DNA of 32,605 nucleotides. Source: Planctomycetota bacterium (GTDB taxonomy: Bacteria; Planctomycetota; Planctomycetia; Gemmatales; Gemmataceae). Below the pieces are notes generated by a model, which was not told where the DNA came from, did no database searches, and was given only the letters and a program-made list of their open reading frames with translations. Below are positions 11,983 through 31,568 of this stretch, piece after piece; the first letter of the stretch is position 1, and each line of letters opens with the position of its first letter. The position numbers were made by a program, and so were the translations under genes. The stretch lies in the NCBI GenBank assembly GCA_021325115.1, contig JAJPHU010000083.1, positions 1-32,605 of the forward strand, written 5' to 3'.

Positions 11983-14900
11983 ATGGCATGGCACGTCAAG
12001 GCAGTATTGGCTCTCGTAGTCCTGTTGGCAAGTTGGATGGGACAAACCGGAAGTATAAGCGACGGCATGTTCACCGTCGCTTACGCTTCCGGCTCATCCG
12101 GGACACCGGAAGAACAGCGTGAAGAGCAGATCATCAAACGTTTCCTTGACGTGCTGGAGAAAAACCCACGGCGCGGCACGGCCCTGGATCGCATCTACGG
12201 CTACCACGTCGAGCGCGGCAGTCTCGATCAACTCATCCGCACCTACCGCCAGCGCGCTCAGAAGGACAAGACAGATGGCACTGCATCGATGATCGTTGGT
12301 CTTCTGGAATCGCAGCGCGGCAAAGATGCCGAAGCCGTCGCTGCATTTCGCCAAGCGGAGAAACGTCTGCCTCAGAACCCCCTGGCGTCGTACTATCTCG
12401 GCCAAGCGCTGGTAATGGTCGGCCAACCAGACGCGGCTGCCGAGGCATTCGAGCGTGCCATCGCCCGCAAACCGGGCCGCACCGACTTGCTCGACATCTT
12501 TCAGGCATTGGGGCGAGTATACCAGCGGGCGCAGCGGAGCGATAAGGCCCTGGCCGTCTGGACGCGGCTAGAACAACTTTTCCCCGATGATCGCCGCGTG
12601 CAAGAGCAGATTGCCTCGACGCTGGCCGAGGAAGGCCAGTACGATCAGGCACTGCCGCGTTACGAAAAACTGGCGCGCGAAGCACGCGATCCTTATCAAA
12701 AAGCCACTTTTCGTATGGAGGCTGCCGAGCTGAAAGTGCGTCTCAAGCAGACAGCCAAGGCGCTGGCTGACTTCGAGGCGCTCTTGGGCGAGTTGAACCC
12801 CGATAGCTGGCTGCACCGCGAAGTCCGCCGCAAGATTGAGGACGTGTTCTTGCGCAACGACGATCAGGCCGGGTTGGCGAAATACTACCAGAGCTGGGTG
12901 GAAAAGCATCCAAGCGACATCGATGCCATCGCCCGGCTGGCCCGCGCTTTGTCCGCTCAGGGGCGCATGCCCGAAGCGCGGTCGTGGCTGGAGAAAGGTA
13001 TCGCCAAGGCTCCCTCGCGGCGGCCGCTGCGTCAGGCGCTCATCGAGCAACTGATATTCGAGCAAAAGTATGGTGAAGCAGCAACGCAGTATGAGGCCAT
13101 GGACAAAGCCGACCCGAATAATCCTGATACCCTGCGTGAATGGGGCAAAGTACTGCTGCGCGATAAGGCACGCCCCGAAGCCGAGCGCAAACAGGCAGCC
13201 TACAACGTGTGGAAACGGCTGCTGGACAAACGGCCCAAAGATCCCGTAATCACGGCTCAAGTCGCTGATCTGCTGCGCGGCGCTGGCATGAGCGAAGAGG
13301 CGATCGCCCTGTATAAGCGGGCTATCGAGTTGGCCCCGCAGTCGCCGCAGTATCGCGAGTATCTCGGCGAATACTACCACAGTTTAAAACGTTCTTCGGA
13401 AGCCCTGGCGACGTGGCGCCCCATGGCCGAAGGAGCCAATCGCAATGCCAAGAACCTGGCCCGTCTGGGCGAAGTGTTCAACGGCTTTGGCTATCGCAAG
13501 GAAGCAGTGGCTGCCTTCGCCGAGGCGGTAGGACTGGACAAAGACGATTTCAACCTGCGGCTGCGCTATGCCGAATTGCTGGAACTGGATGAACGTCACG
13601 ACGACGCTCTGGCCCAGATCGATACCGCCGAAAAGCTGGCCAGCAACGCCGACGAGGCCGAAGCTGCCCTGCAAGCACGGATCAAGATTTATCAATCCAC
13701 GGATACGCTTACTAAACATACCGATAAACTCCGGGAAGAACTTGATGCCGGCAAAGACGCCACGGCGGAGCGCTGGCATCGGCTGGCCCGCTATTACGAA
13801 GCTAACCGGCAAATGGCCGAAGCGACGGCGGCCATCGGCCAAGCGATAAAACGGGACGGCAAATCGATCCCTATTCTGGCCTCGGCGGCGCGCATCCATG
13901 AGAGCGGCGGCAATCTGCTGTTGGCTGCCGATATCAATCGCCAATTGGCCGCCCTTGATCGCCGTTTTCGCACCGAGTATCTGACGACCGTGGCCAAGCT
14001 GGAGGTGCGTCTGGGCCGCCGGGCCGAGGCACTGCAAGCCGGCCGCGATCTCTTGGCCGCCGCTCCCGGCAATCCCGATCATTACAAATTCTTCGCCGAG
14101 CTGTGCTTCGAGTTGGGCGAGAGCACCGAAGGGCTGGAATCCCTGCGCCGCTCGGTGCGGGCCAATCCTTCCGATCCGCAAGGCCTCTTGACGTTGGCCA
14201 ACGCCTTGGCCGAGCTCCCCAACACCGGCGAGGCCATCGAACTGTTCTGGCGTGCTTTCGACAAAACGGATGATTTGGATGGCAAATTGCCGATTATCGC
14301 ACGACTGACCGAGTTGTATCTGCAAAATAATCAGTTCGATCGCTTGCTGGAGCGACTGGAGCGCGAACGACGTGAGGCGGACAAACAGCGGGAGATGACG
14401 CTTTGCCTGGCCCAGGCGTATCAGACGGCCGGCGATCTGGGCACGGCCCGACAGCAGCTGGAGCGTCTGCTCACCGAGAATTCACGAGACACGCAGTTGC
14501 TCCAGCAGTTGTCGAAGCTGGCCGAAAATGAGGGCGATACCGCAGGTGCCTTAAAATATCAGCGCCAATGGGCACAGGCGGCGCCAAACAGTCACGAGGC
14601 CCAACTGGGGCTGGCGCAACTCCTGGTCAAGGCCGGCGAGTCCGAGGAAGCAGCGGCGATCTGGGTCAAGCTGGTCGCCGACGAACCGCAGCCGCACCGC
14701 AATTTGCAAGCCATCGATTCACTCTTGGCTCATGGCAAGGCCGATACTGTGTTGGCTATCACGCGGCGGCTCTTGGCCCAAAATCCAGCTAATTGGGAGG
14801 TGCTTTATCGGGAAGGCGTCGCCTTGGCCGAGTTGCATCGTCAGGATGAGGCTGCCCAACGTTTTCAGACGCTTCTCGATCTGCATCTGTCGGATGATGA

Positions 14901-17900
14901 AGAAGGCGCCGTTCAGAAGGCGCTCAAGAAACAAAAGCCGGGCCGGGCCGCAGGACGAGCGATCAGTCAGATTTCCAATCCGTTCTATGAGGTGCCGTTG
15001 TTGCAGCGCACCGGGAATGTGTGGCAGATCCGGGCCTTCACCGGCCTGGACCCACGCTACGGTTACTACGTCGCTTCCCAACAACACATATGGACGCCGA
15101 ACGATTACGGTCAGGCCCGTATGGCCGCGCTGGCCTGGCAGATGAGGTTCGCCCAGAAGAAGAACCGCAGTGCAGAATTCGTGAAGGCACGGCGCCCTTT
15201 GAGTGGAGGACGCAAATCCCCAGAGCGTGCGAAGACTCCGGGAGCTTACGCCTCCCGCTCGGGAGGATTGCGCGCCCTTTGGGATTGGTATTACCTGCAA
15301 TTGCTACGGCAGGACTTGCGCGAGACGTACCAGGCAGCTCGCGAATTGGCCCGCTCGCCGGACCCGGCTGCTCAGTGGGCCTATCTGCATTCGTTGTCGG
15401 GCCGCCTGGGTACCGAACGCAATCGGCCAGCATCCCGCACCAATGTGGATACCACGCCGCCGTTGCCTGCGGACGAAATCGAGCGCGTCCTCGCCAGCTT
15501 TCAGCTTTTGCGCAAAGAGAAGCCGCAATGGCTGACCACGGATGTGCTAACGAACGTCCTCGCCGAACTGAAACGTGCCAGGCGGACCAACGATGAAGAG
15601 CGTATCTATCGCGAAGCCGTGACGGCTGCTTCGCAGAACAGTCAGCCCGACCTCGTTCAACAGATACTCAACGTCGCTGCCGCTCGGGGCGACGTCGAAA
15701 CTGTCTTACAATTCTTTGAGCGTCTGGAAAAGCTGCAAGGTAATACTCCTCGCTGGAGAGGCATGTCTACCATCCGGCAAACGACCTACGCGCTGAGCGA
15801 AGCCATGCGCGCTCGTGCCGATGCCAAGGACCTCGCCGCCATTCCGCGGCTTTATGAAGCATATGTGGTGGCCAGCCGCCGGCAGCACCAAGCATCGGGA
15901 CGCCGTGCCTTCTCGCGGTCGCTGTCTGCGCCGCAGCAACACTATTATGCGATCTGGACAGGGCGCTATCGGCGCGGCGTCTCCATCGATTTCCCGCAAC
16001 CTAATGATTACCTCGACGAGGGCGCCATCGAACTGCTGCGCAACGCCTATGAGTTTTATAAGCGCGGTGACGTGCTGAGCGATTTGTTCGGCTATTTCCG
16101 CAAGAAATTGGACAGCACTCAGGGGGCTGACGCTCCCCGCTTCGAGGCCGACAAGATTTTACTGCATCTGACACTGGCCGCCCTGCACTGGTGGGAGCAC
16201 GAGCGCGAACAGGCGCTGAACGAAATGAATGCAGCCAGTCAGTTGGCACCCACAGATGTGGAGTTGCGTCTGGAATTGGCCCGGCTGCGCGAGAACAACA
16301 ACGAGCCGCACGAAGCACTGGCCATTCTGGAAAGCCTCACGCCGCAAGATCACACGACTATGCAGCGACGTGAGGCAGCCGCCCTGCGGTTGGCGGTGCG
16401 AACGGGCAACGTCGAACGGGCGCGCCAAGCCGCCGATCGCTTGTTCGGACTCCGCCTCGATGCCGAGACGCAAGTGCAATTGGCCGCTCAGATGCACCAA
16501 CTCGGCATGCACGATGCTGCCGAGAAAGTAATGGCTCGCGCCCAGCGCCAGGCCGGCCAACGCACCGCCGCCCTCATCAGTCTGATGCACCAGTATCAGA
16601 ACCAAAATCAGGTTGAGATGGCCGTGCAGATCGCTCGCCGCTTGCTGCGCAAAGGTCCATCGATGACGTTCCGGCCTTACTACTACCAGCAGGAAAACGA
16701 GGGGCGGACCGAAGCGATTCAGGTGCTGGTGCGCACCGGCAAACTGCCGACGCTGATCGAACGCACCGAGGTCCAGCTCAAAAGCGCGCCGCGCTCGCTG
16801 GAACTGCACCAGACTCTCCTGGAGTATTACAAGGCAGCCGGTGATAAGAACAAAGTCAAGGACATCGCCCTGCGCATGTCGAAGATATGGCCCGATGATG
16901 CCAAGGTGCAGTATCAGATCGCCCAACAACTGCGTGAAATCGGCGAATGGGCCGCTGCTGCCGACCGCTACCGCGATTCCCTCCGTAAAGATCCTTCCCT
17001 GTTCGCTTATAACTATTGGGAGATCCAGCAAGTCTTCGATCAAGCCCACAAGACCGAAGAGCTGATCCAGCTGTTCGATGAGATCGACCTCAAGAGCTCC
17101 GGCAGCAATTGCTGGGTCTTTATGAACATGCTCGAGCCGCTGTTTAACGATGAGCGCACTCGCGCTCGGGGAATGAAATTCTTCCGCAAGATCTGGGATA
17201 CTTTCCCCCAGGAGCGGATCCAGCTTATGGGCTATCTGCATCACGATGCGATTTGGCAGCTGCCTGAAATCTACGATTATGCCCGCCAAGCCGTCATCCC
17301 CCGCAGCGACGAGCCGGTGGCCGACCCCTGGCGCAGCAGCGAGCAGGTTATCTTGTACAGCGGCAACGGTCGGGTCGAAGGATTCGTCACGCGCTTGCTA
17401 AAAGCGGCCCAACGTCAAAACCGCCTGCGTCTGTTGGGACAAGAAATCGAGCAGGTCTTGAGCAAGCGCCCCGAATGGAGCGATGGCAAGGCATTGTTAG
17501 CGATGATCAGTCTCAAGCGCGGGAAAGTAGCCGAGGCGCGGCGGCTGTGGCGGCAGCTGCTCGACGATAAACAAAACCCCATGCCGACCTGGTCGCGCGT
17601 CATCTTCGGTCAGGAGCTGCGCGATTATGAGTCCATGCATGACCTGGCCCTGGAGACCTTCGAGGGAGCAGCCGAAGAGATACAGAATGAGATGAGCATG
17701 GACTACCAATGGAACCCGATTCGTCAGCTCGTCGAGCTGTACCGCGAAACGGGACGCAAGGAGGAAGCGCGGACGCTGATGCTGAAATTGGCTCGCTCAC
17801 GCCATGATGAGTCTTATGATCCCGGTTACGCTGCCTACCGCCGCATCGAAAATACGACTGCGCTGGCCAACAGCTTCACCGAGATGGGCTATCCGATCGA

Positions 17901-20900
17901 TGCTCTGCGTCTGTGCAGTGAATTGCTCGATGACCACGAGACGCTGGAGATGGCAACAACCTGGTATAATGGCCCACATTTGAAACAACAGACCGAAACC
18001 GCACTGCGCAATGCCTTCAAGGGACTGACGCCAGCGACGTTGGCCGAAGCTGTGCATGACGTCCTCACGCCGCGCCCGGAGTCAAACGGCCGGCATCCGC
18101 CAGCTAGCAATGCCTCGGCGTTGGATCTGCTGCTTTTGGTGCGGCCGCATGAGTTGCCGAAGGCCCAGCTGACGAGTCTGCTGGAACGCGCCCTGGATGA
18201 AGCGGTACGTTCCCACGCAGAGCGCAGGAACGAGAAAGAGCCGCGCATGCAAGCCGAAAAAATTCTGGAAAAATTGCTGGTCGAACATCCCCGCGATCTG
18301 TCTGTGCAAATCGCGGCGGCATTGCTGGCGCTGGCGGAGATGCGTTCCCACACAGAAGATGGGAATGAAAAATTGAGGGAGACCATCGATCGCTTGACCA
18401 AGCTGACGGCATCCTTGCCTTTGGAGAAGCTGGAGCCGGGCAAGCGGGCCAACGCGCGCCAACGGGCCGAGGCGGCGCAGCAAATCGGCTTGTGGCTGGT
18501 AGCGCGGGCGTGTCTGCGGTATCCGTCGCTGCGAGCCGCCGGCGAACAACTCGGCCAGAGGGCCGTAGAGGCAGCTCGGCGGCAACTCGAGCCGCACTTT
18601 GCCTTGGCGATCTTGCGCGAATGGGGACAAATAGAGCTGGACCGTGGCGACCGCAAGGCGGCCGAACAACGCTGGGGCGAGATGCTCGATGTCCTCCTGC
18701 CGCAAAGGCGGCAAGCGGGGGAGGTATCCCCGCCAGTACAAAGAAAGACCGAGATACAAAGAAAGACCGGAAGGTTACTCCCTCCCACTCGCCCCCTGCA
18801 AGATAGCAGATTGGTGTTTGCTCTCGCCCCGCCGATCACTGCACCACAGGCGGCAGGCAAGGTACCTTCAGCTCCTGATAAACTCGTGCTCGCCGTCACG
18901 ACTCAGCAATTCGATCGGGCGGCGGAAATAGCCAAAATGGCCGCCGAGCACAAGATGCTCGCTCTGTCGCTACAGGCCATCCGCGACGCTCTGGGCGGCG
19001 GTCCGCCGGTAAACGCTCCGCTGAACATTGGTCGGGTCCGCCGCGTCGTCCGCGTTGTGGGTTCGCCGAATACGGCTAACGAGAATGACCCCAATCAGCA
19101 CAATCAGGTCGTCGCCAATCAACTGAACGATTTGGTGGCGCGCTGGCGGCGTGAGGGAGCAGCCGAAACAGACATCTACGAAACATTGGCCGAGGTGGTT
19201 TTGCCCGCCGGCCGGCCCGGGGAGGTCTTCCTGTACGTGCCGGCCACGCTCCACAATCCCGCGCAGCCGGCACTCAGCGCTGGCCGATTGCTGGCCGAGT
19301 CCGCTCTCCGCGCCGGGCGCCTCGACGACCTGCGCCGTTGTATTACTGCGCGTCTGGACAAACCGTTGGCCGAATGGAACGCTCGCATTCTGTTGGCCCA
19401 GACAGCCTGGGCCGCCAAGGACGAAGCACGCTTGCGCGAGCTGCTCAAAGAATTCGAGCAACGCTTGCAAAAAGACACATTGCAGCACACCGCCGCCCTG
19501 ATCTGTCATGCAGTGGCGCCTTTACTTTCCGTAGGGCACGCTGCCAACGTGCCGGGCACGCAAGCCACGTGTCCTGGCATGGCGGAAGCACTGCCAGTGC
19601 TGGATCGTGCGGCCAAAAATTTAAGCGCTGCCGGTGATACAGATGCTGCCGCCAACGTCCTCTTGTTTCTGGCCCACCACGATTTCGAGCGCGGCAAGAC
19701 CAAGGAAGGAAGAGCACGGCTCGAGGAAGTGATTCAACTACATCAGCGTAACTGGAATCGCAACACCGGGCGTTTCCCGGCGGAGCCTGGGAACAACGTG
19801 TTGAGCGGGCAGATACAAAATGTGGCCTGGGAATACATTCATGCCGGCCTGCTCAGCGACGCTCTCGATCTGCTCGGCACAATCGTCGATCTGCCGATGG
19901 AACAGCAGGCGCAAGTGCCAAAGCAAGCCCTCTTCACCTTGACTGCCGCTTTCGCTCGGCATCTCCTCACACGCCCCGCCGCAGAACGCTATGAATTGCT
20001 CAAAAATTGGACGCTGCCGACGCCGCAGCGCCGTTCTGTCCGCATCCTCGGCGCGTTTGTGTCTACAGAGATGCCGCCGGCCGCGTTCGGCATATTCCCG
20101 CGCGAAGCCTGGCAACGCGGAGATGGGGCCAGCGGCGTGCTGAGCACCCCTGCCCTGCTGATCGATGCAGCACGGGAAGCCGGCAAGCTCGACGAATTGG
20201 CGGCAGAAGTGCGATCTCTGACCAGGTACAAAGTGCGTGCCCAAACAGAGCTTGGGCATGAGAGATTAATCGAGAATGCAGATGTCTTTTATGCATTAAT
20301 CCAGATCACACGTGGCCAGGGCGCTGCGGTCGAAGACATTGTGAAACAGCGTCTCGAACAGCTACGCAAGAAGATGGCGGCGCCACCGCCCATCCGCTCG
20401 CCTTATTATGGAGGGCCGCAGCAGCCAGAGTTGCAAGTCGAATGGCCGGATTATCTGCTGGCGCGGGCTGGCCTGCGGGATGCCGCTTTGACGGAAACGA
20501 GTCGGGCGTTGGCTGAACAGCTCTACTCCTTGGCCCAGCGCACGCGGGACCAGCCGGCCCAGGTTCATCTGCGCGAGGAAATGGCCCAGAGTCGTTGCCA
20601 GCACACAAAAGCACCGGAACTACAATTGCCACACTGGCACCCCGGTGGTTACGTCAGCGCAGGCGCACGCCGCGACGGCCCGCTGCCGGCCCGCTGGGTC
20701 GCTCATGAGGGACACATCGCCCACTTGCTCGGTCCCGATCATCAGTTCTTGATCTTCGACTATCCGCTCATCGGCACGTTCGAGTTCTCGGTCGATGCCT
20801 ACCATGGCGGCTGGGCCGAGGGACATCTCAGCTATGCTGGCATGGTGTTTGAGCCGAATCCTGGTTCAGTCAGCCGGTTTTGGCCGGTTGGTTGTCACGA

Positions 20901-23655
20901 GCAAATCCCCCTGCCGGGTACGGCTCTTCAGCGCGACAGCTTCAATCGCTTTACGGTCCAGGTCACGTCAGGCAAATTGCGCTGGCTGGTCAACGGCCGA
21001 CTCGTCCACGAGCAAACCGACCCCAGTCCAACAAGTCCGTGGCTGGCCCTGTACGCCAGTCGCGAACGGCACACCGTTTTCCGCAATCCTCAGCTGGTGG
21101 GCACGCCGCAGATACCCCGCCAGGTTCGCCTCAGCCACGGCGATCGTCTGGAGGGCTGGGTGTCCAGCTTCTATCAAGAAAGTCAGCCCCGACGCTTGAA
21201 TAAACAGGTCGACGATTTCGCGAGAGATGCCGAAGAGTACCTGGCCGAGGGGATCACGCAGAAACAGCAGCCCTCATCGTTCGACTGGTATGCCCGCGAT
21301 GGGGAGATTCACGGCCATCATGCTCGGGATCTTTCGCTGCGCCGGGAGGTGGGCAGTCTGTTAGCGTACTTTCGGCCGCTGCGTCCAGGCGAGACATTGA
21401 GCTATGAGTTCTTCTACCGACCCGACGAAGTGATGGTCCATCCGAGCCTGGGCCGGCTTGTCTTCCTTCTGGAGCCGCAGCGCGTTCGCTTGCACTGGCT
21501 GGTCGAGAATGACGGCAACGATTGGACCGGTCTGACGCCCGACAATGCTGTCCCTCTTCCCTTCTCCAACTTAGGGGAAGGCAAGGCGAGGATGCTCAGG
21601 GCCAACGAGTGGAACCGCCTCCAGCTCTCCTTAAATGGGGACAAGATAAAAATCGAGGTGAACGGGGTTGTCGTTTGCGAGCGGAAGCTGGAAGCGAACG
21701 ATTCACGCACTTTCGGACTATTTCACTATAAAAATCGCACAGCTGCGCAGGTCCGCAACGTTGTACTGACCGGGAATTGGCCTGACAAACTGAGCGAAAA
21801 AGAGATAGTCGATTCGTTCCGCTTGGCCGGCCCCGCCTCGGATGGTGCCGTTCGCCGAGCGTTAATAGGTGAATCGTTTTTCCTCCGCAGCGCCGGCCTG
21901 GTCTTGAAACAAGCGCGGGAGTTGCCGCCGGAGCAAGCTTACAAGTTGTTGCAGGCATGGGTACTGCCCAACAGGGACCATTCCCTCTTTCAGATAGCCG
22001 GTGAATTCACGCCGACAGATCCCGCGCCTCCCCTGGCCTCCAAGCCGTTGCCACCCGGCCGACGCGTGCAAACTGGAGGCAATCTCGAAGCACCAGCCCT
22101 GGAACTGGCGGCGTTGGCCAAGAAACTCGACAAGCTCGACGACCTGGTTTCGAGTGTGCAAAAGGCTGACACTCCCGAACAGGCGCGCGGACGATGGGCC
22201 ATGCTGGCCCTGTTACGGGCTGCTCAGGAACGGGACGACGAAGCACAAGCGGCCCTCAGCGAGCTGACGCGGCTGATCACGCCGCTGCCGGTCAACGAGC
22301 CGATGTGGCAGCGCTGGCCGGAATTGGTTGCGGCCATCGGCACGAGAAATCGCCCCGCCCTGCGCAGTTCCGTCCTGGCGCTGCTCGATGCTCAAGTTAA
22401 AAAGCTCGAACAGGCGATCATTCAGAACATTTCGCTGCCTGACCGCGATCTCTGGATACGGCACGTACGCCAGGCTCGCGCCGCTGCTCAGGTGCTCGGC
22501 TTGCCCGAAAAGCTCCGCGTGCCCTTCGGGACCGATCCGAACCTGCGTTATTGGGATGCGGTATCGCATAGTAATGCGCTGCCGCGTGGCCTCCACGCTC
22601 CGCGGACGCACTGGTCTAGCGAGGGGAACGTGGTCAGGCATTATCCCGGCCGCGCTCAGGATTACTTGTATCTGCGCGTGCCGCTCGTAGGCGATTTCGA
22701 GGTGTCCTGCGACTTGACCTCTTTCGGTTGGCGCGAGGCGCACCTGGGCTACGGCGGTCTGCGTTTCGATCTTCTTCATACACTAAAGCGATATAATTTG
22801 CATAGTTTTTCCCACTTAATCCGCAGCGGCGATATCGAGCCGCCACTGCCTCCCCTTGGGCCGTGGTACCGGTTTCGCCTTGTCGTCCGCAGCGATACGT
22901 ACACCGTCTATGTCAACGACCGCAAGATATGCGAAGAACCGCTGCCCGATGATGCCGACCCCTGGCTCGTGCTGCACGCCGATCATCAATGCACGGCCGG
23001 CATCCGCAACTTGAAGATCAGCGGCCAGCCGCGCGTACCCGAATCGCTGTCGTTGTCCACCCTCCCGGACCTGACTGGCTGGATCTCTTATGACGGCGGC
23101 CCCTGGCAGAAACGCGGCGATACGATCATCGATCAAGGAGGCCGGCCTGAAACGAGAAGCGATCGACCGTCGCCGCGAACCTGGCAGGAACGGGCGCTGC
23201 ACTATCATCGTCCCCTTCTGGAAGACGGCGAAATCGAATACGACTTTTTCTACGAACCTGGCAAAGAGCATGGGCACCCTGTCCTCGATCGCCTCGTGCT
23301 CTTGCTCGATCCCGAAGGCGTGCGTATTCACTGGCTGACCGATGGCGCTCACGACCGCACCGGCTTGACGCCGGACAATGTCACGACCGAGCCAAATAAT
23401 CGTCGCGGCCCGGCCGTGCTGCCCTTGAAGCCGAAAACATGGAACCATGTGAAACTATCATTATCTGGCGATACGATTGTTCTGCACCTGAACGACACCG
23501 TCATCTACGAGCGCGTACTGGAATCGACGAACCAGCGGAACTTCGGTTTGTTCCACTATGCCGATGAGACGACTCTACGTGTCCGCAATGTGATTTATCG
23601 TGGTCAGTGGCCGCGCCGCTTGCCAGATGCCGAGGAATTATGGGCGCGCAAATGA
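11983..23655 (+). CDS. Giant exported TPR protein with duplicated C-terminal beta-sandwich module
   Basis: One open frame of 3890 residues. Residues 1-20 are a signal peptide (AVLALVVLLASW). From about 45 to 2600 the protein is mostly helical repeats of TPR type (for example around 75-110 and 130-175), typical of protein-binding scaffolds. The C-terminal third holds a tandem duplication: units at about 2665-3268 and 3316-3883. Each has a short helical lead (ELLKNWTLP / KLLQAWVLP), then concanavalin-like beta-sandwich domains with matching motifs (RLVFLLEPQRVRLHWL / RLVLLLDPEGVRIHWL, TGLTPDN in both, FGLFHY in both). This resembles planctomycete DUF1583-type domains. No membrane anchor follows, so it is probably periplasmic or secreted. 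At least seven palindromic elements are read through in frame. It is followed 19 bases later by the WD40 gene. Confidence 0.85.
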   Translation: MAWHVKAVLALVVLLASWMGQTGSISDGMFTVAYASGSSGTPEEQREEQIIKRFLDVLEKNPRRGTALDRIYGYHVERGSLDQLIRTYRQRAQKDKTDGTASMIVGLLESQRGKDAEAVAAFRQAEKRLPQNPLASYYLGQALVMVGQPDAAAEAFERAIARKPGRTDLLDIFQALGRVYQRAQRSDKALAVWTRLEQLFPDDRRVQEQIASTLAEEGQYDQALPRYEKLAREARDPYQKATFRMEAAELKVRLKQTAKALADFEALLGELNPDSWLHREVRRKIEDVFLRNDDQAGLAKYYQSWVEKHPSDIDAIARLARALSAQGRMPEARSWLEKGIAKAPSRRPLRQALIEQLIFEQKYGEAATQYEAMDKADPNNPDTLREWGKVLLRDKARPEAERKQAAYNVWKRLLDKRPKDPVITAQVADLLRGAGMSEEAIALYKRAIELAPQSPQYREYLGEYYHSLKRSSEALATWRPMAEGANRNAKNLARLGEVFNGFGYRKEAVAAFAEAVGLDKDDFNLRLRYAELLELDERHDDALAQIDTAEKLASNADEAEAALQARIKIYQSTDTLTKHTDKLREELDAGKDATAERWHRLARYYEANRQMAEATAAIGQAIKRDGKSIPILASAARIHESGGNLLLAADINRQLAALDRRFRTEYLTTVAKLEVRLGRRAEALQAGRDLLAAAPGNPDHYKFFAELCFELGESTEGLESLRRSVRANPSDPQGLLTLANALAELPNTGEAIELFWRAFDKTDDLDGKLPIIARLTELYLQNNQFDRLLERLERERREADKQREMTLCLAQAYQTAGDLGTARQQLERLLTENSRDTQLLQQLSKLAENEGDTAGALKYQRQWAQAAPNSHEAQLGLAQLLVKAGESEEAAAIWVKLVADEPQPHRNLQAIDSLLAHGKADTVLAITRRLLAQNPANWEVLYREGVALAELHRQDEAAQRFQTLLDLHLSDDEEGAVQKALKKQKPGRAAGRAISQISNPFYEVPLLQRTGNVWQIRAFTGLDPRYGYYVASQQHIWTPNDYGQARMAALAWQMRFAQKKNRSAEFVKARRPLSGGRKSPERAKTPGAYASRSGGLRALWDWYYLQLLRQDLRETYQAARELARSPDPAAQWAYLHSLSGRLGTERNRPASRTNVDTTPPLPADEIERVLASFQLLRKEKPQWLTTDVLTNVLAELKRARRTNDEERIYREAVTAASQNSQPDLVQQILNVAAARGDVETVLQFFERLEKLQGNTPRWRGMSTIRQTTYALSEAMRARADAKDLAAIPRLYEAYVVASRRQHQASGRRAFSRSLSAPQQHYYAIWTGRYRRGVSIDFPQPNDYLDEGAIELLRNAYEFYKRGDVLSDLFGYFRKKLDSTQGADAPRFEADKILLHLTLAALHWWEHEREQALNEMNAASQLAPTDVELRLELARLRENNNEPHEALAILESLTPQDHTTMQRREAAALRLAVRTGNVERARQAADRLFGLRLDAETQVQLAAQMHQLGMHDAAEKVMARAQRQAGQRTAALISLMHQYQNQNQVEMAVQIARRLLRKGPSMTFRPYYYQQENEGRTEAIQVLVRTGKLPTLIERTEVQLKSAPRSLELHQTLLEYYKAAGDKNKVKDIALRMSKIWPDDAKVQYQIAQQLREIGEWAAAADRYRDSLRKDPSLFAYNYWEIQQVFDQAHKTEELIQLFDEIDLKSSGSNCWVFMNMLEPLFNDERTRARGMKFFRKIWDTFPQERIQLMGYLHHDAIWQLPEIYDYARQAVIPRSDEPVADPWRSSEQVILYSGNGRVEGFVTRLLKAAQRQNRLRLLGQEIEQVLSKRPEWSDGKALLAMISLKRGKVAEARRLWRQLLDDKQNPMPTWSRVIFGQELRDYESMHDLALETFEGAAEEIQNEMSMDYQWNPIRQLVELYRETGRKEEARTLMLKLARSRHDESYDPGYAAYRRIENTTALANSFTEMGYPIDALRLCSELLDDHETLEMATTWYNGPHLKQQTETALRNAFKGLTPATLAEAVHDVLTPRPESNGRHPPASNASALDLLLLVRPHELPKAQLTSLLERALDEAVRSHAERRNEKEPRMQAEKILEKLLVEHPRDLSVQIAAALLALAEMRSHTEDGNEKLRETIDRLTKLTASLPLEKLEPGKRANARQRAEAAQQIGLWLVARACLRYPSLRAAGEQLGQRAVEAARRQLEPHFALAILREWGQIELDRGDRKAAEQRWGEMLDVLLPQRRQAGEVSPPVQRKTEIQRKTGRLLPPTRPLQDSRLVFALAPPITAPQAAGKVPSAPDKLVLAVTTQQFDRAAEIAKMAAEHKMLALSLQAIRDALGGGPPVNAPLNIGRVRRVVRVVGSPNTANENDPNQHNQVVANQLNDLVARWRREGAAETDIYETLAEVVLPAGRPGEVFLYVPATLHNPAQPALSAGRLLAESALRAGRLDDLRRCITARLDKPLAEWNARILLAQTAWAAKDEARLRELLKEFEQRLQKDTLQHTAALICHAVAPLLSVGHAANVPGTQATCPGMAEALPVLDRAAKNLSAAGDTDAAANVLLFLAHHDFERGKTKEGRARLEEVIQLHQRNWNRNTGRFPAEPGNNVLSGQIQNVAWEYIHAGLLSDALDLLGTIVDLPMEQQAQVPKQALFTLTAAFARHLLTRPAAERYELLKNWTLPTPQRRSVRILGAFVSTEMPPAAFGIFPREAWQRGDGASGVLSTPALLIDAAREAGKLDELAAEVRSLTRYKVRAQTELGHERLIENADVFYALIQITRGQGAAVEDIVKQRLEQLRKKMAAPPPIRSPYYGGPQQPELQVEWPDYLLARAGLRDAALTETSRALAEQLYSLAQRTRDQPAQVHLREEMAQSRCQHTKAPELQLPHWHPGGYVSAGARRDGPLPARWVAHEGHIAHLLGPDHQFLIFDYPLIGTFEFSVDAYHGGWAEGHLSYAGMVFEPNPGSVSRFWPVGCHEQIPLPGTALQRDSFNRFTVQVTSGKLRWLVNGRLVHEQTDPSPTSPWLALYASRERHTVFRNPQLVGTPQIPRQVRLSHGDRLEGWVSSFYQESQPRRLNKQVDDFARDAEEYLAEGITQKQQPSSFDWYARDGEIHGHHARDLSLRREVGSLLAYFRPLRPGETLSYEFFYRPDEVMVHPSLGRLVFLLEPQRVRLHWLVENDGNDWTGLTPDNAVPLPFSNLGEGKARMLRANEWNRLQLSLNGDKIKIEVNGVVVCERKLEANDSRTFGLFHYKNRTAAQVRNVVLTGNWPDKLSEKEIVDSFRLAGPASDGAVRRALIGESFFLRSAGLVLKQARELPPEQAYKLLQAWVLPNRDHSLFQIAGEFTPTDPAPPLASKPLPPGRRVQTGGNLEAPALELAALAKKLDKLDDLVSSVQKADTPEQARGRWAMLALLRAAQERDDEAQAALSELTRLITPLPVNEPMWQRWPELVAAIGTRNRPALRSSVLALLDAQVKKLEQAIIQNISLPDRDLWIRHVRQARAAAQVLGLPEKLRVPFGTDPNLRYWDAVSHSNALPRGLHAPRTHWSSEGNVVRHYPGRAQDYLYLRVPLVGDFEVSCDLTSFGWREAHLGYGGLRFDLLHTLKRYNLHSFSHLIRSGDIEPPLPPLGPWYRFRLVVRSDTYTVYVNDRKICEEPLPDDADPWLVLHADHQCTAGIRNLKISGQPRVPESLSLSTLPDLTGWISYDGGPWQKRGDTIIDQGGRPETRSDRPSPRTWQERALHYHRPLLEDGEIEYDFFYEPGKEHGHPVLDRLVLLLDPEGVRIHWLTDGAHDRTGLTPDNVTTEPNNRRGPAVLPLKPKTWNHVKLSLSGDTIVLHLNDTVIYERVLESTNQRNFGLFHYADETTLRVRNVIYRGQWPRRLPDAEELWARK
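12047..12092. repeat. Palindromic element after the TPR signal peptide (family C)
   Basis: Arms 12047-12065 and 12074-12092 match at 17 of 19 positions around an eight-base loop. The core (CCGGAAGCGTAAGCG and its complement) is the same as in the 21-bp inverted repeat at 31503-31557. It is translated here as residues 22-37 (includes TVAYASGSSG up to 40), directly between the signal peptide and the first helical repeat. Confidence 0.8.
15192..15281. repeat. Palindromic element inside the TPR gene (family A), flanked by direct repeats
   Basis: The element at about 15205-15267 has an imperfect stem (GGAGGACGCAA with TTACGCCTCC) and the conserved middle GCGAAGACTCCGGG. It encodes residues 1075-1095 including ERAKTPGAYASRSGG. 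The 10-base sequence GCGCCCTTTG occurs on both sides (15192-15201 and 15272-15281), which could be a target duplication, although the 80-base spacing is not a multiple of three. A close relative lies in the WD40 gene at 23743-23802. Confidence 0.75.
16117..16138. repeat. Palindromic element inside the TPR gene (family D)
   Basis: The 17 bases ACTCAGGGGGCTGACGC (16117-16133) are identical to the coding strand of the tandem-VWA gene at 30970-30986. GGGG and CCCC on either side of CTGACGCT form a short hairpin. Here it is read as residues 1379 onward (TQGADAPR), one frame away from the reading in the VWA gene. Confidence 0.65.
18208..18237. repeat. Family B palindromic element, copy 1 (TPR gene)
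   Basis: CGTTCCCACGC at 18208-18218 faces GCGCAGGAACG at 18222-18232, close to the common bacterial repeat form CGTTCCCACGC-AGA-GCGTGGGAACG. It encodes residues 2076-2085, RSHAERRNEK. Confidence 0.7.
18343..18372. repeat. Family B palindromic element, copy 2 (TPR gene)
   Basis: TTCCCA (18345-18350) pairs with TGGGAA (18360-18365). It matches copy 1 at 22 of 30 bases and is in the same reading frame, giving residues 2121-2130, RSHTEDGNEK. It lies 135 bases downstream of copy 1. Confidence 0.65.
18715..18769. repeat. Hairpin plus 18-base tandem duplication in the TPR gene
   Basis: GCGGGG (18715-18720) pairs with CCCCGC (18728-18733). Right after it, ACAAAGAAAGACCG occurs twice (18738-18751, 18756-18769) with an 18-base period, so the protein repeats QRKTE/QRKTG (residues 2253-2263). 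The surrounding segment 2245-2275 is Pro/Arg/Lys-rich and breaks the helical-repeat pattern. Confidence 0.6.
19535..19574. repeat. Double palindrome in the TPR gene
   Basis: GGCACG (19535-19540) pairs with CGTGCC (19548-19553), and GGGCACG (19554-19560) pairs with CGTGTCC (19568-19574, one mismatch). It encodes GHAANVPGTQATCPGM (residues from 2518), a Pro/Gly-rich break between helices that contains one of the protein's few cysteines. Confidence 0.6.
20236..20265. repeat. Family B palindromic element, copy 3 (TPR gene)
   Basis: GCCCAA (20239-20244) pairs with TTGGGC (20252-20257). The layout CGTGCCCAAACAGAGC...CATGAG matches copies 1 and 2 and is again read in the same frame, giving residues 2752-2761, RAQTELGHER. 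Confidence 0.6.
21550..21591. repeat. Family E palindromic element in the TPR gene
   Basis: CTTCCC (21556-21561) pairs with GGGAAG (21575-21580) around TTCTCCAACTTAG. It encodes residues 3190-3203, including PLPFSNLGEGKAR, in a loop of the first beta-sandwich unit; the second unit has a different, shorter sequence there. It aligns with the WD40 gene element at 25220-25264 in the same frame. Confidence 0.6.
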
Positions 23656-23674
23656 GGCGAGGCGGGAGAAAGCT

Positions 23675-26563
23675 ATGCAACGTTATTCTCCTATCGGTGC
23701 AGCGCTTTTGGTCCTCGCGCTTGTGGCGTCCTTCCAGAGTAAGGGGCGTCCGCCCTCGGAGCATGCGAAGACTCCGGGGGCGGACGTTCCCCGCTCCGGG
23801 AGTTCGCCTCGGCGTTTTCCTGAGCCAACCAAGTTCGATCCCAGGCCGACCGCGCTTGGCGACGACTCCGCCGAGATGCTCGCGGTGATCTATTCACCCG
23901 ATCGGGAGACTTTGGCGACCGGCGGCGCCGATAAGTTGGTCAAGCTCTGGGATGCTGCGGGCGGCAAACTCCTCGCTTCCCTTGCCGGGCACAGCGATGC
24001 CATTGCTGGACTGGCCTTTTCACCGGATGGCAAAATCCTGGCCTCGGCCAGCTACGATCAGACCATTAAACTGTGGGACGTTGCTGCCCGCAAGGAACTG
24101 TGTACCTTGACTGGTCACAAAAATTGGATTTTCGGGATATCTTTTTCTCCAGATGGCAAAATGTTGGCCTCGGCCAGCTACGACCGCACGGTCAAGGTTT
24201 GGGACGTTGCCAGCGGGGTTGAGCGGGCCACGCTGAAACGCCACAAAGGCAGCGTCCGCGCCGTGGCGTTTGCACCGGACGGCAAGCTGCTGGCTTCCGG
24301 CGGCGCCGATCGCCGTATTTGCCTGTGGGACACGGGCACGCTCGCGGAGAAAGCTGTGCTGGCAGGGCATGAGGGGACCGTGCGCGGCCTGGCCTTTTCG
24401 CCGGACAGTAAGCGCCTGGCCAGCGTCGGCGAGGATCGGGCCGTCAAGTTGTGGGACGTGGCTCAGGGTCGAGAAGCGCTGTCACTTGATGGTCATAGCG
24501 ATGGCGTTTTCTCCGTGGCGTTTTCGCCCCACGGCCAGCTATTGGCTACGGGGAGCTTTGATCGCACCATCAAACTGTGGGACATAAATAGTGGGGCAGA
24601 GTTGGCTACTCTTGAAGGCCACAGCGAGGGCGTGACCTGCCTGGCGTTCGCGCCGAGTGGTCGGCAACTGGCCAGCGCCGCCGCCGACCGCACCGTCTAC
24701 CTATGGGAGGCCAGCCTGCCGCGTTTGCAAGCACGGCATACGCAGCAGTGCAGGCATGGGCCGCACACCGTCGCTGCTCTCGCGCCCAATGGCAGCATCG
24801 CCGCCACGGCCGGCGACGACCGAACGATCCGCCTCTACGACGTGAGGACCTGGCAGATCAAAGCAACTCTGCGCGGTCATCGGGCAGCGGTAGTCGGCCT
24901 GGCGTTTTCGCCAGATGGCAAACTGCTGGCCAGCGCCAGCCGCGATCGCACGGCCCGCTTGTGGTCGGTACCAGACGGCCGGTTAATTACCTCGCTCGGC
25001 GGCCATCGCAATGCCGTCCGTGCCGTCGCGTTTTCGCCCGATGGCAAGACACTCGCCACCGCCGGTTCCGATCGCACCATCCTCTTGTGGGACGTGCCCG
25101 ATCCCTCAGCCGTACCCGAGCCGCTGCGTGAACGGGCAACCTGGACCGGCCACAGCACCGGTATCGCCTGCTTGGCCTTCTCGCCCGATGGACGCCTGTT
25201 AGCCAGCGGTGGTGATGCCGCCCTCCTTCTCTCCCCCAAATTGGGGAAGGGAAAAGGCGGAGCGACTGGCATCGTCAAATTGTGGGATATATCCAGCGGC
25301 AAGGAAAGGGCGAGTTGGTCTGCCCACGCGGGTGACGTGACTGCACTGGCTTTCGCCCCGCACGCTCCGCAGTTGGTAACGGGCGGCAGCGATGCAGCTT
25401 TCAAGATATGGCGTTTAGACGACCACAAATGTATTTTAACACGTAGACAACGGAGCGCCGTGTGTGCGCTGACATTTGCTCCGGATGGCAAGCAGTTTCT
25501 AAGCGGATATTCGGGGTCTGAAATAGTGCTATGGGATACCGACTCCTGGCAGGAGCAGATTCGATTGACGGGACATCACGGTGCCATCCATTCACTCGCT
25601 TTTGCGCTGGACGGTAATTTCCTCATCAGCACTGGTCAGGATGAGATGCTCAAACAGTGGAGCTTGGAGCCACGGCATTTACCGGTGGTGCGTTGTAGCG
25701 GCCACAGCGGTTGGGTGACAGCCGCCATCTTGACCCCGGATGGACGGCACATTCTCTCCGGCAGCTGGGACGGCACGCTCCGCCTCTGGGATGCCAGCAG
25801 CGGCCAAGAAGTCGCTGTCTGGGAGGGCCATGCCGACAAGGTACAAGCCGTGGCCCTTCGTGCAGACGGACGGTTTGCTCTGTCGGCTAGCAGCGACCGT
25901 ACGGCGCGCCTCTGGGACGTTGCCGCCGGCAAAGAAATTCGGCAGCTCAAAGGACACACGAAAACGGTGACTTGTGCCGCTTTCAGCCCGGATGGCCAGT
26001 ACGTCGTTACGGGAAGCCACGATGGTACGCTCCGTCTATGGGACGTGGCGACCGGGCGTGAGCTGCAGAAGCTCAAAGGATTGACAGACTCTTTGTACGC
26101 CGTCGCCTTCGCGCCGGATAACAAGACCATTGCCGCCAGTGGAAGCGAGGACAATGCCTGCGTCCTCTGGGACACAGTCGCTAACAAGAAACAAGGATTC
26201 TTCACCGGACATGCCGGCCCCGTATTGGCGCTTGCTTTTTCTCCTGATGGACAACAGTTGCTGACTGGCAGCACAGACCGCACTGTGCGCCTCTGGGAGG
26301 TGACAACCAAGAAAGAAATCCGCCGTTTCGAAGGACACGCTGGCTATGTTCGTTCGGTATGGTTCGCAGCCAATGGCCGGTACGTCCTGAGCGGTAGCTA
26401 CGATCACACGGTTCGTTGGTGGGACGTGCGAACGGGAGAATGTCGGGACAGTTTCGAGCTGCACGATAAACCGGTGTTAAGTGTGGGATTATCGATCGAT
26501 GGCCACCGAGCCGTCTCCGGCGGCGCGGACGGCATTGTATGTTTGTGGGAATTGACACCATAG
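23675..26563 (+). CDS. Exported WD40 protein with 21 repeats (three predicted seven-bladed propellers)
   Basis: Start ATG 23675 is preferred over an upstream GTG at 23600 that overlaps the TPR gene: it has GGGAG upstream and gives a signal peptide-like start (AALLVLALVASF at 9-20). The product is 962 aa. I count 21 consecutive WD40 repeats from about residue 65 to the end, with the usual F-SPDG-LAS-D-T-LWD pattern; 21 fits three seven-bladed beta-propellers. Repeats 7, 12-14 are the least regular. Two palindromic elements are translated: residues 24-44 just after the signal peptide, and 516-530 inside repeat 11. WD40 propellers bind partner proteins; no catalytic domain is present. The gene follows the TPR gene by 19 bases, so both are probably co-transcribed and may form one exported assembly. 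Confidence 0.88.
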   Translation: MQRYSPIGAALLVLALVASFQSKGRPPSEHAKTPGADVPRSGSSPRRFPEPTKFDPRPTALGDDSAEMLAVIYSPDRETLATGGADKLVKLWDAAGGKLLASLAGHSDAIAGLAFSPDGKILASASYDQTIKLWDVAARKELCTLTGHKNWIFGISFSPDGKMLASASYDRTVKVWDVASGVERATLKRHKGSVRAVAFAPDGKLLASGGADRRICLWDTGTLAEKAVLAGHEGTVRGLAFSPDSKRLASVGEDRAVKLWDVAQGREALSLDGHSDGVFSVAFSPHGQLLATGSFDRTIKLWDINSGAELATLEGHSEGVTCLAFAPSGRQLASAAADRTVYLWEASLPRLQARHTQQCRHGPHTVAALAPNGSIAATAGDDRTIRLYDVRTWQIKATLRGHRAAVVGLAFSPDGKLLASASRDRTARLWSVPDGRLITSLGGHRNAVRAVAFSPDGKTLATAGSDRTILLWDVPDPSAVPEPLRERATWTGHSTGIACLAFSPDGRLLASGGDAALLLSPKLGKGKGGATGIVKLWDISSGKERASWSAHAGDVTALAFAPHAPQLVTGGSDAAFKIWRLDDHKCILTRRQRSAVCALTFAPDGKQFLSGYSGSEIVLWDTDSWQEQIRLTGHHGAIHSLAFALDGNFLISTGQDEMLKQWSLEPRHLPVVRCSGHSGWVTAAILTPDGRHILSGSWDGTLRLWDASSGQEVAVWEGHADKVQAVALRADGRFALSASSDRTARLWDVAAGKEIRQLKGHTKTVTCAAFSPDGQYVVTGSHDGTLRLWDVATGRELQKLKGLTDSLYAVAFAPDNKTIAASGSEDNACVLWDTVANKKQGFFTGHAGPVLALAFSPDGQQLLTGSTDRTVRLWEVTTKKEIRRFEGHAGYVRSVWFAANGRYVLSGSYDHTVRWWDVRTGECRDSFELHDKPVLSVGLSIDGHRAVSGGADGIVCLWELTP
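23743..23802. repeat. Family A palindromic element in the WD40 gene
   Basis: CGTCCGCCC (23747-23755) pairs with GGGCGGACG (23778-23786), extended by GGGG (23743-23746) and CCCC (23789-23792). The middle GAGCATGCGAAGACTCCGGG differs at one base from the TPR element near 15217-15236. It encodes residues 24-44, including SEHAKTPGADVPRSG, between the signal peptide and the propellers. Confidence 0.8.
25220..25264. repeat. Family E element inserted in WD40 blade 11
   Basis: CCCCAA (25234-25239) pairs with TTGGGG (25241-25246), in a C/T-rich then A/G-rich sequence. The 45 bases encode residues 516-530 (ALLLSPKLGKGKGGA) between GGDA and TGIVKLWD. Without them repeat 11 has normal WD40 length, so this is a clear 15-codon insertion in the loop between strands c and d. 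Confidence 0.8.
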
Positions 26564-26578
26564 GGGAGTGAATAATTT

Positions 26579-26645
26579 CGTTTCGCTGCGAGTTGTAGAC
26601 GAGCGCGGGGATGTCTCGCGCTTGTCTACGGCTCGCAGCGAAACG
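26579..26645. repeat. 29-bp inverted repeat between WD40 and DUF1549 genes
   Basis: Arms 26579-26607 and 26617-26645 match at 26 of 29 positions with a nine-base loop; each begins or ends with CGTTTCGCTGCGAG or its complement. It occupies the leader of the DUF1549 gene, ending 27 bases before its ATG. The frame remains open through it, so an in-frame extension upstream is possible but unlikely. It may reduce read-through from the WD40 gene or be a mobile palindrome. Confidence 0.8.
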
Positions 26646-29782: not shown

Positions 29783-31480
29783 TCATGCGCCGCCGTAGAA
29801 ACGATACAGTTGCCGTACGCCCGCCGGCGCCAGCAGGAAAATACCCAACAACAACAATAATGCCAGATAGATACGATAGTCCATCTCCGGTACAACGACG
29901 CCGTGGACGTTGTAATCGACGGAGCCGACGTTACTGAGGCGGACGCCGCCGTGCTCGATGCTGATATCGATGCCCCGGGCCGTGCCGTCGTGGCTGGAAC
30001 GCTGGCTGGCGAACGTCACGGTGTAAGTCGATTGCAGCTGCGTTGCCAGGTCACGAAAAAAATCGGGCAGCTTGGCCGCGTCGCGCGCCCAGAAGAATTT
30101 GCCACCCGTTTTTTCGGCCAGCTCGCGCAACTCTGCCTCGTTGATACCGTCATCGTGCAGATGGATCGAAAGTTCCTCGAAGATGTCGAACAATTTTTGC
30201 TCGTTGCCGGCATGGAAATATTTGCCGCCGGTCTCCGCGGCCATGCGCTTCATGATGGCCTCGTTGATTTCTTCCTTCTGGCCCAGGCCGAGCATGTAAA
30301 GCGGATATTTCAATTCTTTAGCACGATCGATGACCAGCTGAGCGGAGACGCGGCTGCCGGGTGCTTCGTCGCGGCCGTCGGTGAGGACAACGACGGCGTT
30401 GCGGCCGTTGCGACGGGCGGCGGCCAACGTCTCCAAACCGGCGTACGTGGCATCGTAGAGCGAGGTGCCGCCTTCCGGTTGCAACTCCTTGATGCGCTGG
30501 GTCAACAATTGCTTGTCGTCGCTGAAATTGGCGGGAACATCATCGACATTGCTGCTGAAGGGCTGAAGGGCGATCTTGGCGTCGCGCCGCATCAAGTCGA
30601 CGAAATGCGAGGCAGCCGTGCGCAACGCTTCGATTTTTGAGCGCTGATCGTTAGCATCGGCCTTCTCTTTCATGCTGCCGGAATGATCGAGAACCAGGAC
30701 AGTGGTGACGTTTTTGTACTTGCCCAATTCACCGATACCGAGCGTGTAGATCGGGACTTGATAAACGGTGGCCAGTTTGATGACTTCGCCCACGCTTCGT
30801 TTGCTGTTCATGTCCACACCATCGGTCATAAGGACGACGGCGCGGCGGCCGGCAATGTCCCGGAGCATGTCCACGGACCTGGCAACAGCGTCGAGGTAAG
30901 CAGTGCCGCCCATCGGCCGAGCTGCGTCGATAAGCTGGCGAATCTTGCGGCGATGCTCCTGAGCCGGGGGCGTCAGCCCCCTGAGTCTGACCTCGTGTCC
31001 GGGCGGCTCTTCGACACGCATAAGATGATCGAAAAGGATCAGACCAATTTCGGAGTTTGCGGAGAGATGGTTGAGAAAGATGCCAGCCGCCTTCTTGGCC
31101 TCGTCGAGCTTGCACACACGGCTGCCGCTGCTGGCGTTTTCCATACTGCCACTGATGTCCATGGCTAATACAGCAGTCAGCGGCGTCCATGGCGAGAAGA
31201 TTTCCAGGTCGTGGACCTTGCGGCCATCCTCGCGAACAACGATGTCGGCCTTGTCCACATCAGCATCCTGGCCATCGGAAGCGCGACGCACTCGGAAATG
31301 TACGGTGACGTACAATGCCTGTTTGCCATTGCGCTCGCGGAACGAGGCGAACACTTTGTTTTCACCGTGGTCATCTTTGTCGATCTCGATTTGATAGTGC
31401 AGGGATTCGGTATCCGGGGCAGCACCTGGCACAACGGCGACGAGCAGCAGCGCCAGAGCGATGGCGGGGAGGATACGCAT
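29783..31480 (-). CDS. Exported tandem-VWA protein with C-terminal membrane anchor
   Basis: Start ATG 31480 is chosen because it gives a signal peptide (RILPAIALALLLVAVVPGA) and has GGAGAG six bases upstream; the frame opens further upstream into the yidC end but without homology. The 565-aa protein has two VWA domains, each with a complete MIDAS: DISGS (108-112), T193, D220, and DHSGS (265-269), T339, D368. A beta-rich segment and one transmembrane helix (about 537-551) with a short basic tail follow, so both VWA domains should lie outside the membrane. Residues 160-178 include a palindrome-encoded stretch (RLRGLTPPA). The gene separates yidC from mnmE, which are neighbours in many bacteria. 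Binding partner unknown. Confidence 0.85.
   Translation of the reverse strand: MRILPAIALALLLVAVVPGAAPDTESLHYQIEIDKDDHGENKVFASFRERNGKQALYVTVHFRVRRASDGQDADVDKADIVVREDGRKVHDLEIFSPWTPLTAVLAMDISGSMENASSGSRVCKLDEAKKAAGIFLNHLSANSEIGLILFDHLMRVEEPPGHEVRLRGLTPPAQEHRRKIRQLIDAARPMGGTAYLDAVARSVDMLRDIAGRRAVVLMTDGVDMNSKRSVGEVIKLATVYQVPIYTLGIGELGKYKNVTTVLVLDHSGSMKEKADANDQRSKIEALRTAASHFVDLMRRDAKIALQPFSSNVDDVPANFSDDKQLLTQRIKELQPEGGTSLYDATYAGLETLAAARRNGRNAVVVLTDGRDEAPGSRVSAQLVIDRAKELKYPLYMLGLGQKEEINEAIMKRMAAETGGKYFHAGNEQKLFDIFEELSIHLHDDGINEAELRELAEKTGGKFFWARDAAKLPDFFRDLATQLQSTYTVTFASQRSSHDGTARGIDISIEHGGVRLSNVGSVDYNVHGVVVPEMDYRIYLALLLLLGIFLLAPAGVRQLYRFYGGA
30966..30986. repeat. Family D element in the tandem-VWA gene
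   Basis: GGGGGC (30966-30971) pairs with GCCCCC (30976-30981) around GTCA. Bases 30970-30986 are the exact reverse complement of 16117-16133 in the TPR gene. It encodes RLRGLTPPA inside the first VWA domain, in a loop before the T193 MIDAS region, and in a different frame from the TPR copy. Confidence 0.65.
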
Positions 31481-31502
31481 GATTGCTCTCCGGACAGGTC
31501 CC

Positions 31503-31557
31503 GACGAGCCGGAAGCGTAAGCGACGGTCATTCTGCCGCTTACGCTTCCGGCTCGTC
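31503..31557. repeat. Perfect 21-bp inverted repeat between yidC and tandem-VWA genes (family C)
   Basis: Arms 31503-31523 and 31537-31557 are perfect complements with a 13-base loop. The core GCCGGAAGCGTAAGCG is shared with the in-frame element at 12047-12092. It occupies most of the 88-base gap between the two minus-strand genes and has no T-run, so it is more likely a REP-like palindrome than a simple terminator, though it could still reduce read-through or protect the transcript. Confidence 0.85.
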
Positions 31558-31568
31558 TCCTTCGCGAA

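Follow-up and report, generated by a model that had tools for sequence, protein, structure and literature searches.

Two unrelated proteins encoded in a 32,605-nucleotide stretch of the genome of an uncultured Gemmataceae bacterium (Planctomycetota; contig JAJPHU010000083.1, hereafter the window), a TPR protein and a WD40 protein, share a short peptide that very probably arose when a single kind of miniature mobile element, a REPIN-like dimer of GAGC-tagged units, was copied in frame into both genes. The peptides, PERAKTPGAYASRSG in the TPR protein and SEHAKTPGADVPRSG in the WD40 protein, both fit the pattern E-x-AKTPGA-x3-RSG without gaps, as the first-pass annotation of this DNA had described, and the repeat search recovered the pair as a 46-nt match of 78% identity (D13). 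The element of about 60 bases proposed in that annotation is real, although in both genes it extends further than was then stated (Table 1). Its in-frame reading is LSGGRKSPERAKTPGAYASRSG in the TPR copy and QSKGRPPSEHAKTPGADVPRSG in the WD40 copy, the latter lying directly after an apparent signal peptide; the WD40 ORF is listed from a GTG at 23600, and the signal-peptide-like stretch starts at the ATG at 23675.

Table 1. Palindromic elements and their host genes in the window
Feature	Position	Strand	Evidence
Host gene 1: 3890-aa TPR / DUF1583_N / DUF1581 protein	11983..23655	+	ORF, Pfam
Second-family dimer (GAGCCGGAAGCGTAAGCGACGG type), TPR gene, in frame and following the apparent signal peptide	12042..12097		R1 15 bits, E 0.15 (weak); inverted repeat I25
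Complete REP-dimer element, TPR gene	15199..15262	+	R1 50.9 bits, unit match, frame and peptide
TPR copy, left unit	15201..15221	+	
TPR copy, spacer	15222..15239	+	
TPR copy, right unit	15240..15260	+	
Single unit, GGGGGC-type family, in frame in TPR gene (TQGADAPRF)	16122..16142	+	2 mismatches
Host gene 2: WD40 beta-propeller protein	23675..26563	+	ORF, Pfam
Complete REP-dimer element, WD40 gene	23735..23798	+	R1 63.6 bits; DNA fold z -4.6
WD40 copy, left unit	23737..23757	+	
WD40 copy, spacer	23758..23775	+	
WD40 copy, right unit	23776..23796	+	
Single unit, GGGGGC-type family, in VWA-like ORF 29783-31666 (RGLTPPAQ)	30961..30981	-	0 mismatches
Second-family dimer near the 5' end of the VWA-like ORF	31504..31556		R1 30.2 bits; inverted repeat I22

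Further copies, which the first-pass annotation had proposed to look for, are dispersed through the genome. Aligned dimers define the element as a head-to-head pair of palindromic units of about 21 nt with a spacer, the consensus being CTGAGCGGGGGGCGTNAGCCCCCTGAG - spacer - CTCAGGGGGCTNACGCCCCCCGCTCAG with the ends CTGAGC...GCTCAG, and each unit follows a plan of a 6-bp stem and a TNAC loop that is common to several families in these Gemmataceae genomes. With up to three mismatches allowed, the unit pattern has 57 matches in the 5.6-Mb genome (a Gemmataceae MAG, G000) versus 0 for a reversed control. A covariance model built from the aligned dimers (R1, 22 training sequences) gave at least 126 matches on both strands, corresponding to at least about 69 places, a lower bound given that scoring covered 150 of 2087 candidates. 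Places with the weakest support (E above 0.01) may be chance matches; at least about 47 places were found outside the training set. The window copies reach E values of 3e-10 (TPR) and 2.5e-13 (WD40), which are partly circular because both copies are among the training sequences. The family displays several of the traits by which REPINs are recognized, namely inverted units with a spacer, high copy number and folding of the doublet as a long hairpin, the best copy folding as DNA at -35.1 kcal/mol (z -12.5). A check of the consensus identified the tag as GAGC, and neither GTAG/GTGG/GYRG nor CGTC/TGTC/CCTC with a CCA-like tail. In four members of the genus, R1 has 104, 79, 144 and 67 matches on both strands, with few or none elsewhere in the family and order, and a plasmid search with the consensus gave no match. 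A longer, nearly perfect subfamily, GCGAGCGGGGTTGCGTNAGCGCCCCGAG, is represented by very similar copies at C265:2-67 (L120), C147:20031-20095 (L122) and C201:4520-4581 (L114), and may be the most recently active one.

Pairing within the dimers exceeds that of shuffled alignments, with 90% of cells paired versus 83.5% and 32 cells changed on both sides versus 13.1, and none of 500 shuffles reaches either value; because the structure was itself taken from these sequences, and relatedness alone can lift an alignment above its shuffles, the excess supports rather than proves that the hairpin is under selection or templating. The two window copies differ in this regard. It had been proposed that both retain pairing between diverged arms, which holds for the WD40 copy, where pairing is clear, whereas the TPR copy appears decayed, with pairing largely lost (DNA fold z -0.1); the left and right 21-nt units show 15 and 13 Watson-Crick agreements in the window copies.

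The shared core GCGAAGACTC corresponds to the spacer of the element, and the longer string GCGAAGACTCCGGG, noted at first as the shared DNA core and indeed common to the TPR and WD40 copies, comprises the spacer and the start of the right unit. As a conserved core of the family it was rejected, since it has two exact copies in the genome and its one-mismatch count of 6 is close to the 5 of the control. A scan of the genome contigs with the TPR segment gave no match. Nine dimers with 18-nt spacers were compared: the spacers of the window pair are identical at 16 of 18 positions and those of any other pair at 12 or fewer, and three other dimers carry shorter spacers of the form GAGCGAAG(A/T)CTC. 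By whole-element similarity the window pair ranks 606th of 2145 pairs because its arms have diverged, so that sister status rests on the spacer, from which the TPR and WD40 copies are probably sister copies. Such an unusually similar spacer in copies 8.5 kb apart could also reflect local duplication or gene conversion between the two genes without a transposase, a process that could still explain this one pair within a mobile family. Nevertheless, the similarity ends at the element ends, the flanks are unrelated, and the same dimer lies at dispersed places on many contigs, and we consider local copying unlikely.

Codon usage was evaluated to either side of every place, in all six frames, with a score trained on ten window genes, and 23 of the at least 69 places were called in frame inside genes, the other 46 not being called intragenic. 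Seventeen of these calls followed an automatic rule or nearly so; the remainder, including the WD40 copy, were added by hand because one side was short or the score weak, and C317, C83, C279 and C23:42528 are weaker or single-unit calls. The majority of places lie outside genes, but this intragenic share, about a third of the detected dimers, exceeds that described for REPINs, and the GAGC-tagged family sits inside conserved genes unusually often. The encoded peptides follow LSGGR(K/Q)PPE...GLTPPAQ or GADAPRSG. One phase is used by 17 of the 23 intragenic copies, and in copies not called intragenic 57 of 88 orientations lack stops in this favoured phase, versus 32 and 32 of 88 in the alternatives. 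Insertion in the same frame in unrelated genes, as originally suggested for the window pair, therefore agrees with the favoured phase being the one most often free of stops. Hosts recognized by similarity to solved proteins include purL, cobN and both uvrA genes. In CobN, the 20 inserted residues form a clean gap against PDB 7c6o; in UvrA2 and PurL, the insert region aligns poorly, and the copies were placed by frame rather than by a clean gap. The genome also encodes a fused double UvrA (C23:42338-46642), in which two UvrA units occupy one open frame of 2365 aa, with the same arrangement in G001 and G002.

Comparison with relatives bears out the earlier prediction that orthologues would reveal presence and absence of the segment. 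Clear orthologues of the TPR gene were found only in two genomes of other families (36-42% identity); both lack about 16 residues at the element site, and their genomes have no R1 match. For 16 intragenic sites, the flanking sequence was used to search three sister species from this genus, and 14 sites could be aligned. Empty sites were found for C18, C58 and C177 and, in G002, for C112, and the C118, C60 and C247 sites are variable loops with no element in sister species. CobN orthologues are likewise variable in the insert loop. The PurL site (C91) is occupied by near-perfect dimers in G001 and G003, and the element in the S10 peptidase gene (C36) is common to G000 and G002. Searches with the WD40 flanks gave no match in any of the three sister genomes, and target-site duplications were not resolvable. 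Location inside an ORF, in-frame read-through and absence from orthologues, which together characterize an intragenic insertion, are thus documented by CobN, the empty sites and the TPR orthologues. In the G003 orthologue of the C112 gene (GlcE-like; L231, C227:6850-7500), GTGGGCGTAAGCCCAC-type palindromes are repeated in tandem at the position that is occupied by a single dimer in G000 and by none in G002.

These observations bear on two further explanations. A protein motif kept by peptide-level selection in the TPR and WD40 proteins, with the DNA palindrome incidental, would fit the ungapped peptide match. It is scarcely credible, as the unit is also found in intergenic DNA and in other proteins and frames, TPR orthologues lack the peptide, the copies covary as DNA pairs, and inserts in uvrA orthologues change faster than their flanks. 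Protein-motif homology of the shared peptide was accordingly rejected, since it conflicts with the occurrence of this sequence outside genes, and the original preference for a mobile palindrome over homology of the proteins is upheld by the genome-wide copies and by the orthologues lacking the segment. Alternatively, the palindromes could be functional RNA or DNA signals, such as terminators or protein-binding sites, placed by selection and with intragenic copies as by-products; many copies are intergenic and intact dimers form strong hairpins, as would be expected of signals. This interpretation is highly improbable given that presence and absence vary among close species, that the copies in purL, cobN and uvrA are not in evidently regulatory positions, and that an Rfam search of the window returned no family match. 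The host may still make secondary use of the elements.

In the four species of the genus, palindromic inserts occupy orthologous spots in each of the two UvrA paralogues, and in the wider family the UvrA spot holds a typical SGGRQPPE...GLTPPAR peptide in one genome (L334) and no insert in another (L340). The close matches to a UvrA segment are MAGs of Planctomycetota and Gemmataceae. Among uvrA orthologues, the insert sequence evolves faster than the flanks, and the arms co-change above expectation in several pairs (10 vs 5.0 for UvrA1 between G000 and G001, and 6 vs 2.9 for UvrA2 between G002 and G003). S10 peptidase orthologues (C36) have no excess of paired arm changes (2 vs 2.6 expected), and arm co-change is therefore suggested for uvrA only. 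These counts come from few, related sequences with arms set by hand, and they are only suggestive of arms that change together. A broader reading, which we hold tentatively and judge somewhat doubtful, is that a RAYT-type family in this genus uses genes as regular landing sites and that its inserts are long-lived, evolving parts of proteins, the DNA hairpin being maintained inside conserved coding sequence, by arm-to-arm templating or recurrent replacement, as the arms of uvrA inserts would stay complementary through paired changes.

With regard to mechanism, the element would have been copied into the TPR and WD40 genes in the frame that tends to lack stops, insertions being tolerated in loops or just after signal peptides. 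The copying enzyme may be a HUH tyrosine transposase of the RAYT type that acts on the hairpin in single-stranded form, with selection presumably removing frame-breaking or disruptive insertions. The arms might then drift together, either through template switching from one arm to the other or because newer copies replace older ones.

Evidence for the RAYT link comes from relatives. The GAGCCGGAAGCGTAAGCGACGG-type second family and the GCGAACCGGC type each flank a RAYT gene on both sides in G003 (L268 and L272, respectively), and R1-matching GAGC dimers flank RAYT genes on both sides in the same order (L295 and L289; G025 and G026); these flanking repeats are related and of GAGC or GAAC type. 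By NCBIfam, two RAYTs fall below the cut-off (25 and 44 bits of 80). A cognate RAYT was not found in G000 with two RAYT queries, and the sole Y1_Tnp match there is bordered by palindromes of other kinds. Genes with flanking repeats often go missing where contigs end, and because the draft genome is 93.7% complete this absence is weak evidence; RAYT mobilization is therefore something we infer. Tallied by genome, an L295-type RAYT is present in 9 of 11 genomes with R1 matches and 10 of 20 without, an agreement loose enough that it was not used as support. The palindromes might instead spread by another route, as MITEs moved by an unrelated DDE transposase or through template switching driven by the host, the RAYT association in relatives then being incidental. 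This alternative draws on the missing cognate RAYT and on CGTC-type REPs, which likewise have no known transposase (PMC3733652). Yet within the genus or order, RAYT genes are bracketed on both sides by each of three repeat types built to one plan, and we regard such a route as rather unlikely. A DUF1156 ORF in G000 (C3; L063 2111-4435) runs in frame through a complete RAYT domain that passes the NCBIfam cut-off (NF047646, 103 bits), is bounded by GGCACAGGCTTTC/GAAAGCCTGTGCC palindromes and is followed by further such palindromes downstream in the same ORF; it may be a transposase that has entered a host gene in frame.

Other palindromes also occur in the window. The second family likewise yields peptides that resemble one another, TVAYASGSS and YVAYASGSF, and they lie close to the N-terminus in the TPR protein, in the VWA-like ORF and in an FG-GAP-like protein (C247 ORF, L141). 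At 26579-26645, near the start of the ORF at 26568, a 29-nt inverted repeat of 90% complementarity resembles the long near-perfect hairpins flanking a RAYT match in G002 (L264 1252-1321 and 2103-2168), and on this resemblance it may represent a third palindrome family.

REPINs are REP doublets that form hairpins and have been described in extragenic space (Bertels and Rainey 2011, PMC3116915). The present family resembles them in its inverted short palindromic units, less conserved spacer, doublet as the repeated unit, RAYT link (here in relatives) and lineage-specific expansion; it differs in its GAGC-like tag versus GT(A/G)G, in that about a third of its detected dimers are called in frame inside genes and in the missing cognate RAYT in G000. 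GTAG/CGTC REPs are tagged palindromes of 20-40 nt, often arranged as head-to-head dimers, with intragenic cases that include both uvrA genes of Opitutus terrae (Verrucomicrobia) (Di Nocera et al. 2013, PMC3733652). The family described here shares the tagged head-to-head dimers and the intragenic copies, uvrA included, but carries neither tag and has a unit of a 6-bp stem and TNAC loop. RPE-1, RPE-4 and RPE-6 are Rickettsia palindromes found in frame in unrelated, apparently functional proteins, of which RPE-4 and RPE-6 have a CGTC tag and no associated transposase gene (PMC3733652). The analogy drawn with Rickettsia at the outset is apt for the mode of action, in-frame palindromes in unrelated proteins, but not for membership, as the tags differ (CGTC in RPE-4 and RPE-6, GAGC here) and the family resembles RAYT-linked REP dimers (REPINs); the likeness is one of behaviour, and sequence kinship is not claimed. 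RAYT genes are flanked by two inverted REPs with a GT(A/G)G head, whose palindromes are preserved by complementary changes and whose origin has been placed in gammaproteobacteria (Nunvar et al. 2010, PMC2817692). The RAYT genes L268, L272, L289 and L295 are similarly flanked on both sides, although they are planctomycetal and their repeats have GAGC-type ends. In-frame insertion of mobile palindromes into genes is thus known in other bacteria, while this GAGC-tagged family of REPIN-like palindromes that decorate proteins is undescribed, no publication on it having been found in the part of the literature searched.

The family adds a GAGC-tagged, RAYT-linked type of REP in Planctomycetota. Natural in-frame insertions in conserved enzymes, together with empty sites in sister species, make the gain of peptides by proteins from mobile DNA testable, as well as how much a loop tolerates. 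They also call for caution, in that a short peptide common to several proteins can, in genomes of this kind, stem from mobile DNA and not from homology.
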